A stretch of DNA of 64,000 nt, taken from positions 1-64,000 of the forward strand of contig CALUMI010000007.1 of NCBI GenBank assembly GCA_944321725.1, given 5' to 3'. The notes under the pieces are model-generated. The model was given only the letters and a program-made list of their open reading frames with translations. It was not told the DNA's origin and searched no databases. Position 1 is the first letter of the stretch. Each line of letters opens with the position of its first letter. The DNA is from an uncultured Muribaculaceae bacterium. Lineage in GTDB: Bacteria > Bacteroidota > Bacteroidia > Bacteroidales > Muribaculaceae. Positions 59,144-61,387 of the stretch are shown in pieces. A program made the position numbers and the translations under genes.

Positions 59144-59782
59144 TCATTTTTTCAGCATAAGCCATTGAAAAGAGAACACATCGCCACCGACAGGGATGTC
59201 GACAAGCAATATTTTCCCTTTGCTACTTTTCAAGAACATATATCCCGAAATACTTTTGCCGGCATATAGCGTTGTCTTTTTCAAATACCCGACTTTTTTG
59301 GAAAACCTGTCGTCCTCCATCATCCGTTCCAACGCATAAGTAGCCGCTACATTTTGCGGCAACTCGTCAGTCGAGCCAAGTCCTGTGGCTATGCCCGACA
59401 TTGCCACCGACCAATTTTGCTGTTTTCTTAACTTCTTTTGCAACTCGTCATTGCTATATACATCAAGGCTATTGATTAGTTTATCCCTATTTTTATGTTG
59501 GTTAACCACACGAGCGGAAACACTGTCGGGATCTAACAGTACAGTCCTGCCTGATTTGTTCAAAATAAATATTTTCAACCTGTAATAGTCATCTTTGTCG
59601 TCATCATTCAATGTCACTCCAACCCAAAAATCACCGTTATCCTTATACACCCATTCCTCTCCGTCGATCCACTCTGTCAAATCATAATTCTGCCTATCCT
59701 GCTCAAAAAGAGAAAACACCGTTTTCTTACCGCAAGCCACCAACAACAGCACAACCGCCAACAACAATATCAGCCTTTTCAT
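59144..59782 (-). CDS. Unknown lipoprotein, beta-rich
   Basis: A 212-residue protein starting MKRLILLLAVVLLLVACGKK, a lipoprotein signal with Cys17. A longer in-frame start at 59827 lacks a signal and is not preferred. The mature part has an N-terminal beta domain (W-I-D-G-E-E-W-V-Y-K-D-N-G-D-F-W-V-G-V; L-L-D-P-D-S-V-S-A-R-V), a helical segment around 105-150 and a final strand pair G-Y-M-F-L-K-S-S-K-G-K. It follows another lipoprotein gene by 19 bases. I do not recognise a family. Confidence 0.7.
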   Translation of the reverse strand: MKRLILLLAVVLLLVACGKKTVFSLFEQDRQNYDLTEWIDGEEWVYKDNGDFWVGVTLNDDDKDDYYRLKIFILNKSGRTVLLDPDSVSARVVNQHKNRDKLINSLDVYSNDELQKKLRKQQNWSVAMSGIATGLGSTDELPQNVAATYALERMMEDDRFSKKVGYLKKTTLYAGKSISGYMFLKSSKGKILLVDIPVGGDVFSFQWLMLKK

Positions 59783-59801: not shown

Positions 59802-60434
59802 TTAATCCTCATCAAGAACATCATCAATAATATCCCTCAATTTATTAATGTTATGGTCATCAAATTCATCATCTGTGAAAACATTGACGATATTCTCCAT
59901 ATCCTTATCAGTAAGAATCACAACATCCCCCATAAGCGTCATTCCGTTACCATTCTCTGCACGGTAACGATGTGCGATAACCCAACCACAGAACACACCT
60001 TCATTGATTGTTTCATAGCAAGTGCGGATAATCGTTTGTTGCTCTTTCAATTCATCCTCACAACCTTTCAACTTTCTTTCTGCTTCAGCAAGCTCTTCTT
60101 TTGCCTGACGATATTTTTCTTCCCGGTAAGCACTTCTCCCATAAGTAAAATCGCCATATAAAGAAACGTCTGACAATGCTCCCTCATAATCCATTTGCAG
60201 TCTTTCTCTTTCCATCTTCAAATCTATAATCTCATAAGCCGCCATCAAGGCCTCCTTATTTGTATAAATCGTAACAAACGCACTGTCAACTACAGTTTCG
60301 ACAGGCTCGTAAGTATCAGGATAATAAAGAGTCTTTACCACCGTTTCCTTTGCGATTTTTTCAGCTTTCTTTTCTCTGCCACCACAAGACACCAACAACG
60401 GCACGACCGCAAATATCAAAACCAACCTTTTCAT
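59802..60434 (-). CDS. Lipoprotein with a P-D-[ST]-Y-E domain split by a coiled coil
   Basis: A 210-residue protein starting MKRLVLIFAVVPLLVSCGG (lipobox Cys17). Residues 33-53 (K-T-L-Y-Y-P-D-T-Y-E-P-V-E) and 151-176 (A-H-R-Y-R-A-E-N-G-N-G, then V-V-I-L-T-D-K-D) match the two blocks of the island protein at 13393-13740. The piece between, about residues 58-145, is a coiled coil (Y-R-Q-A-K-E-E-L-A-E-A-E-R-K-L). The tail is acidic (D-D-V-L-D-E-D). The function is unknown; it looks like one domain opened by an inserted helical arm. Confidence 0.72.
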   Translation of the reverse strand: MKRLVLIFAVVPLLVSCGGREKKAEKIAKETVVKTLYYPDTYEPVETVVDSAFVTIYTNKEALMAAYEIIDLKMERERLQMDYEGALSDVSLYGDFTYGRSAYREEKYRQAKEELAEAERKLKGCEDELKEQQTIIRTCYETINEGVFCGWVIAHRYRAENGNGMTLMGDVVILTDKDMENIVNVFTDDEFDDHNINKLRDIIDDVLDED

Positions 60435-60478
60435 AATAATATATTTTAAGTTTAACAAATCATATCACACCGTATATA

Positions 60479-61192
60479 CTATATATTAATATTTTGAGTG
60501 CCAAAGATTAGTTTGTGTACTAAGTTCATAAAAGACTCATAATCAATATCAACAGTTCTATTGTTTTGTAAAAACCAATTTATATACTGAGGATCTTTTT
60601 CATATACCGCCCTATAAGTTTGCCCTTTATATTTCCCAAAAGAAATTATATCATCAACCGTGATTTTAGGGAATACACGCTGAATTTCTATGGCCATTTT
60701 TTCTTGTGCATTTTTGTCTTCAGGATTTACACCTATTAAGGCAAAAAAATCAATTCTATAATATGGATCATTTTTTACTAACCAAAATATGTATTTCGGA
60801 TTTTCTTTATATACCTCTGAAATTGTTTTCCCTTTATATCTACCAAACGACATAACTTCGTCAACTTTATGAACCGGAAATATTTCATTCATATTCACAC
60901 CCGGGACATCAAGGAGTACCCATTCACCGCAACCTGCACATGGTATCTCTCCGTCAGTAATTTTAGGATAACATTCCTTTATATAAGAATCGTTAGGCTT
61001 ATCATCTACCAAGCATATTCCATAAGCCTTACCATATCTACCTCTTGGTTCAACCCTTTCAACCATGAAAGACCTCCCTTTATGACTATATCTATTTTCT
61101 TCTCCATACCTTTCAGGCCAACGTTTGACCTGAAACGGAGTCCGTTTTCCTATCTTATAATAAATGTTGAATATATTATCATTCGGATACAT
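60479..61192 (-). CDS. Protein with tandem ExoX C-terminal-like motifs
   Basis: A 237-residue soluble protein. The C-terminal half has the same block twice: M-S-F-G-R-Y-K-G-K-T-I-S-E-V-Y (residues 114-128, closing Y-I-F-W-L-V-K-N) and I-S-F-G-K-Y-K-G-Q-T-Y-R-A-V-Y (183-197, closing Y-I-N-W-F-L-Q-N). This block resembles the small domain that follows the nuclease in exodeoxyribonuclease X. No DnaQ-type nuclease domain is present. The N-terminal 80 residues are basic and aromatic, and a single C-A-G-C lies at 85-88. It leads a three-gene unit with two lipoproteins; the link between them is unexplained. Confidence 0.78.
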   Translation of the reverse strand: MYPNDNIFNIYYKIGKRTPFQVKRWPERYGEENRYSHKGRSFMVERVEPRGRYGKAYGICLVDDKPNDSYIKECYPKITDGEIPCAGCGEWVLLDVPGVNMNEIFPVHKVDEVMSFGRYKGKTISEVYKENPKYIFWLVKNDPYYRIDFFALIGVNPEDKNAQEKMAIEIQRVFPKITVDDIISFGKYKGQTYRAVYEKDPQYINWFLQNNRTVDIDYESFMNLVHKLIFGTQNINI

Positions 61193-61350
61193 ATCTTTTT
61201 AGTAAATTATTTCCATAAACCAAACATCATATTCTTCTGATTAAAAAAGCATAACGTTTCGTTATTTCCTAAAAATCAATGAAATCAAGACAATCCCCCG
61301 ACTTCAATAACAAAAATAGCAAAAAATTGACAACAACCCAAAATTCCCGC

Positions 61351-61387
61351 AAAAAAAGCCGCACCAAAGAAAATTTCTTTAGTGCGG
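61351..61387 (-). terminator. Terminator of the GH20 gene
   Basis: A stem of about 13 pairs (about 61359-61371 with 61375-61387, one T-G pair on minus) is followed on minus by TTTTTTT at 61351-61357. Confidence 0.85.

Follow-up and report, generated by a model that had tools for sequence, protein, structure and literature searches.

The minus strand of the window (the whole 64,000-nt stretch of DNA analyzed here, from an uncultured Muribaculaceae bacterium) encodes a 237-aa protein that carries two ExoX-like C-terminal (ExoX-C) domains and no nuclease and whose N-terminal part is predicted to fold like the mitoribosomal protein mS34. Its family is rare, patchy, and mobile in gut Bacteroidales, is placed by defense or restriction genes and small secreted proteins, and is under strong purifying selection. 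Tentatively, we regard it as an accessory factor of phages and mobile elements of Bacteroidales, a noncatalytic adaptor made of an mS34-like barrel and tandem ExoX-C domains that would act on nucleic acid in element-host conflict. The gene and its surroundings have the following features:

59144..59779, minus strand: lipoprotein gene B (211 aa, with the lipobox LVAC); genus mate G003 has an orthologue at this locus
59802..60434, minus strand: lipoprotein gene A (210 aa, with the lipobox LVSC)
60479..61192, minus strand: focal gene, 237 aa; predicted mS34-like N-terminal domain and two ExoX-C domains
60560..60646, minus strand: ExoX-like_C copy 2, residues 183-211; PF20600, 46.1 bits
60770..60853, minus strand: ExoX-like_C copy 1, residues 114-141; PF20600, 48.5 bits
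60896..61192, minus strand: N-terminal domain, residues 1-99; predicted SH3-type barrel resembling mitoribosomal mS34
61311..61342, minus strand: promoter-like site of the Bacteroidota type, TTTG-N-TATTTTTG; consensus match only
61359..61387, minus strand: terminator-like stem of 13 pairs followed by a T run, separating the GH20 gene from the unit; pattern match only

Both C-terminal blocks belong to ExoX-like_C, scoring well above the curated PF20600 cut-off of 26.5 bits with E-values of 2e-12 (copy 1) and 1e-11 (copy 2) in a whole-genome profile search, which bears out the two motifs recognized in an earlier note on this DNA. Over the first block, the PF12843 (DUF3820) profile likewise attains its cut-off, which may mean that the two families are related; the PF12843 label “quorum-sensing-regulated virulence factor” is merely a family name. 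No DEDD exonuclease domain was matched in Pfam or NCBIfam, and the top NCBIfam match, exodeoxyribonuclease X, is restricted to the tail of the protein, so the block is indeed doubled without the nuclease, as had been claimed. The N-terminal 80 residues, previously described as basic, are mildly so (16 Lys and Arg and 11 Asp and Glu residues, pI 9.3). The start codon is backed by homologues that open with the same MYPxDNIF motif, and three pairs of homologues gave dN/dS ratios of 0.072, 0.077, and 0.090 (dS is close to saturation for the 0.090 pair, and no usable dS was obtained from a fourth), values that exclude a chance ORF.

Where the earlier note had seen a basic region, structure prediction points to a folded mS34-like domain; both the fold and the mobility of the family were missing from that note. 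AlphaFold models, each computed with six sequences as input, were obtained for the focal protein (the window model; mean pLDDT of 78, pTM of 0.51) and for the N-terminal domain of a homologue from the phage contig L083 (mean pLDDT of 76, pTM of 0.75, the only one of its five models above 60), the two proteins being 29% identical overall. In VIA comparisons, the window model matched mS34 with a Z score of 7.9 (75 aligned residues, rmsd of 3.0) and its 19 top rows were mitoribosomal chains (Z of 7.9 to 4.4), followed by the UHRF1 Tudor domain at 4.2; the L083 model matched mS34 with a Z score of 9.2 (89 aligned, rmsd of 2.9), its 22 top rows spanning Z scores of 9.2 to 5.7 and the next row dropping to 3.6. 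Foldseek gave no significant match with the whole window model and 16 best rows that were all mitoribosomal with the L083 model (E of 1.1e-3 to 0.14, probability of 0.99 to 1.00 in 15 of them). Among the matched chains, those named mS34 by their depositors come from mammals, plants (9evs, 6xyw), Chlamydomonas (7pkq), Tetrahymena (6z1p), and Trypanosoma brucei (6hiv, 6hiw, 7pub); 7aor_t bears another name, and 7ane_t, 8a22_Bz, 9fia_Bg, and 9hqv_Bt are further matched chains. Both predicted models thus have the mS34 fold, and residues 1 to 99 are predicted to form a folded domain that resembles mS34 clearly more than other folds. When aligned, this domain and mS34 also have the motifs G..(V/P).R, V.P, GKA(W/Y)G, and (D/E)W.L in a common sequence along the chain, and within the N-terminal domain G15, P19, F20, R24, V44, V47, Y53, G54, G58, C88, G89, W91, and L93 are invariant (alignment A2). 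A CxxC pair was considered as a metal site and discarded, C85 being Asn in L083 and L142.

The sequence support for homology to mS34 is weak. The mS34 profile, PF16053, had no match in the genome at an E of ≤10 (nor in the control genomes) and none in the Pfam scan of the focal protein at an E of ≤1, and the N-domain profile alone retrieved no mS34 chain from the PDB at an E of ≤10; hhalign of this profile against the human mS34 segment gave a P value of 0.006 and a probability of 6%. A mixed profile of the human segment and nine N-domains listed the chains of Tetrahymena (0.098), T. brucei (0.29), and T. cruzi (0.33), none of which the human segment listed by itself, and brought the plant chains to 0.14 from 0.21 to 0.28, whereas the Chlamydomonas chain fell to 21.4 from 29.2 bits. 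A control profile with shuffled rows kept only near-human mS34 chains, its alignment being longer (243 columns) and hence a poorly matched control. The focal protein, known here from predicted models, further differs from mS34 in being bacterial and phage borne and in its fusion to ExoX-C. mS34 is counted among the supernumerary mitochondrial proteins (PMC11251090), and none of the mS34 papers listed in literature searches reports a bacterial homologue in its title or at the start of its abstract. There is about an even chance that mS34, regarded as specific to mitochondria, is truly homologous to proteins of bacterial mobile elements and phages, in the present case joined to tandem ExoX-C domains; if so, the mitoribosomal protein may stem from a bacterial or phage pool of nucleic acid-binding adaptors. 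A bacterial and phage relative would make the origin of this supernumerary protein testable.

The predicted match to mS34 could also point to a factor directed at translation, whose barrel would bind the host ribosome or rRNA and whose ExoX-C domains would supply further contacts to RNA or protein, allowing a phage or element to modulate translation. According to PMC8067846, mS34 contacts 12S rRNA in the mitoribosomal foot as well as mS40, mS26, and mS27, and the copies in L083 and L142 lie in phage late regions, after genes judged by eye to be phage tail-like. Nevertheless, a common fold proves no function, ExoX-C is otherwise found on a DNA exonuclease, and the genes nearby have to do with restriction, helicases, and NERD proteins, not with translation; such a role is unlikely.

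The ExoX-C module itself is not confined to nucleases. The only other ExoX-like_C match in the genome is a 253-aa DnaQ-type exonuclease (G000 contig 12), encoded between what we take to be dnaN and coaBC, the enzyme and gene names being assigned from the sequences; the gene adjoins dnaN at L003:1438-3075, and exonuclease-like and dnaN-like ORFs are adjacent in 13 of the 18 relatives' loci examined. Compared with such ExoX/DnaQ-like enzymes, the focal protein lacks the nuclease, has two ExoX-C copies instead of one and a different N-terminal domain, and is mobile rather than core. Among 57 viral-contig ORFs with an ExoX-C match (from 58 loci, near-duplicates included, found with a profile built from the focal family's own repeats), 26 are under 120 aa and too short for a nuclease, so the module exists without one. 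Only L082 and L083 carry two copies, so doubling seems particular to the focal family; the stand-alone ExoX-C/DUF3820 (PF12843) phage proteins share the absence of the nuclease but have a single copy and no mS34-like domain. Phage proteins of 72 to 76 aa in L104, L110, L124 to L126, L128, and L136 to L138 contain little beyond one ExoX-C domain. Searches of the literature on the exodeoxyribonuclease X C-terminal domain, DUF3820/PF20600, Muribaculaceae phage defense, and Bacteroides mobilizable elements found no protein of this kind. E. coli ExoX residues 1 to 167, without ExoX-C, were crystallized and kept activity (PMC3753628). A natural doubled form free of the nuclease offers a way to find the binding partner of the domain that was cut away in that structure.

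At an E of ≤1e-8, the whole protein has matches in 11 of 397 genomes of the family and in 4 of 393 of the order, its own included in both, and the N-terminal domain alone in 1 of 395 phylum genomes, its own (the three sets overlap). The 11 include a weaker relative with one ExoX-C (G053), a partial copy (G159), and a split copy (G302), and one of the four is an exonuclease-like protein instead (G645); none of three genus mates carries the family. Named carriers are Duncaniella muris and Xylanibacter rodentium. A 15.9-kb circular record of Bacteroides finegoldii carries a copy together with an integrase and a DUF5906 protein, with a NERD protein beside the copy; further copies are found in an unverified fecal phage record and in the IMG/VR contigs L082, L083, and L142 (the last ending inside the N-terminal domain). 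Loci L044 and L046, from two genera, have in common 5.1 kb at 98.9% identity that includes the gene and a tyrosine recombinase. Directly after the L082 copy lies a type I restriction-modification system (HsdM-, HsdS-, and HsdR-like, the first two assigned by eye), and a type II methylase and a restriction enzyme are directly upstream of the copy in G053. In G302 a KAP NTPase is upstream; in G679 Fic is nearby, and the gene next to the copy is PD-(D/E)XK-like by our reading of the sequence, with weak PADLOC hits. Record L036 (NZ_OY725957.1), labeled a plasmid, resembles an integrative element that was excised or miscircularized; it contains an integrase and a gene for mannose-1-phosphate guanylyltransferase.

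Purifying selection, the existence of ExoX-C without a nuclease, and a doubling particular to the family suggest an adaptor or decoy role in element-host conflict, in which confidence is moderate at best. The barrel would contact nucleic acid (DNA or a structured RNA), whereas the two ExoX-C domains might take up the site used by the single ExoX-C tail of the resident ExoX-type exonuclease, making the protein a decoy or tether in conflicts of mobile DNA with the host or a rival phage. The two lipoproteins would be coexpressed cargo that may guard the envelope, rather than obligate partners. Counting against the decoy reading, ExoX-C is not known to have a function, and the E. coli enzyme keeps its activity without it. 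Several observations count against the accessory role: neither the focal protein nor the lipoproteins are matched by a PADLOC model; an adjacent same-strand secreted gene is missing from five of 17 loci (L037, L049, L053, L082, and L083), and L037 and L083 have no obvious restriction gene beside the copy; mS34 homology is poorly backed by sequence tests; and the focal gene itself lies in a gap of the chromosome flanked by GH20 and valS, where no integrase adjoins it.

The layout of that locus agrees with the earlier claim that the gene leads a unit with two lipoproteins. The three genes are on the same strand with gaps of 44 nt (focal gene to A) and 22 nt (A to B), neither of which contains a TAnnTTTG (-7) box, whereas valS has its own; the terminator-like stem and the single promoter-like site lie ahead, the -7 box of the latter being 126 nt from the focal start. 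Matches to this Bacteroidota-type consensus number 6 in the window against 3.6 expected. The GC content of the unit drops to 32 to 42% from about 50% in the flanks, and in genus mate G003 the shared flanks enclose lipoprotein B and other genes, one phosphodiesterase-like, one encoding a secreted protein, and one a UvrD-like helicase. Such data fit a passenger selected on its own merits, with neighbors that merely mark a GH20-valS hotspot; a clean empty site was not found, valS and GH20 being on separate contigs in G001 and G002. A mere passenger is rather improbable, since the family recurs next to secreted genes on elements that are unrelated, which speaks for more than coincidence.

That recurrence is seen at 12 of 17 loci (15 surveyed together plus L082 and L083), where a gene adjoining the focal gene on its strand encodes a predicted signal peptide; the background is 31 of 141 more distant ORFs. 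The binomial value is 0.009 if the loci are independent, and it is optimistic because several are close relatives. The caller was a crude rule that also called the L051 restriction enzyme secreted (left out of the count), and the 12 include L048, with a gap of 259 nt and a truncated focal ORF. Together with the short gaps and one promoter-like site, this association would favor a single envelope process shared by the focal protein, for instance as a cytoplasmic regulator, and the two lipoproteins. However, the partners fall into about five families unrelated by BLAST (three of them without a Pfam match), and neither lipoprotein occurs at the 16 other focal loci. Relatives of A and B were found in 26 and 14 other genomes, respectively, of the 342 family genomes searched, and both occur in genomes without the focal protein. 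Among 14 such loci examined, A and B are adjacent in G081 and separated by a secreted gene in G113, and in G130 A is directly upstream of a UvrD-like helicase 79% identical to that beside B in G003, so such genes are shuffled from one small unit to another. A shared envelope process is therefore quite unlikely; conservation of the coupling asserted in the earlier note is not supported for these two lipoproteins, and the coupling survives in a looser form, as adjacency to other secreted genes. The helicases (∼873 aa; L075:2650-5271 and L186:2129-4753) have RTasHel and GajB as their best PADLOC matches. The start of lipoprotein A (window positions 60390 to 60453, signal peptide MKRLVLI...) has 82 to 89% DNA identity to L075:5918-5961 and L075:2501-2561, the starts of two otherwise unrelated genes of G003, as if leader segments recombine.

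Two broken copies, one interrupted by a transposase-like ORF (L052) and one split in two (L049), could suggest a decayed gene in which the two ExoX-C domains are what is left of an ordinary exonuclease, a reading that the intact conserved domain in the nuclease's place and the purifying selection make highly improbable. The interrupting ORF, in G685, encodes 461 aa (L052:7483-8868).
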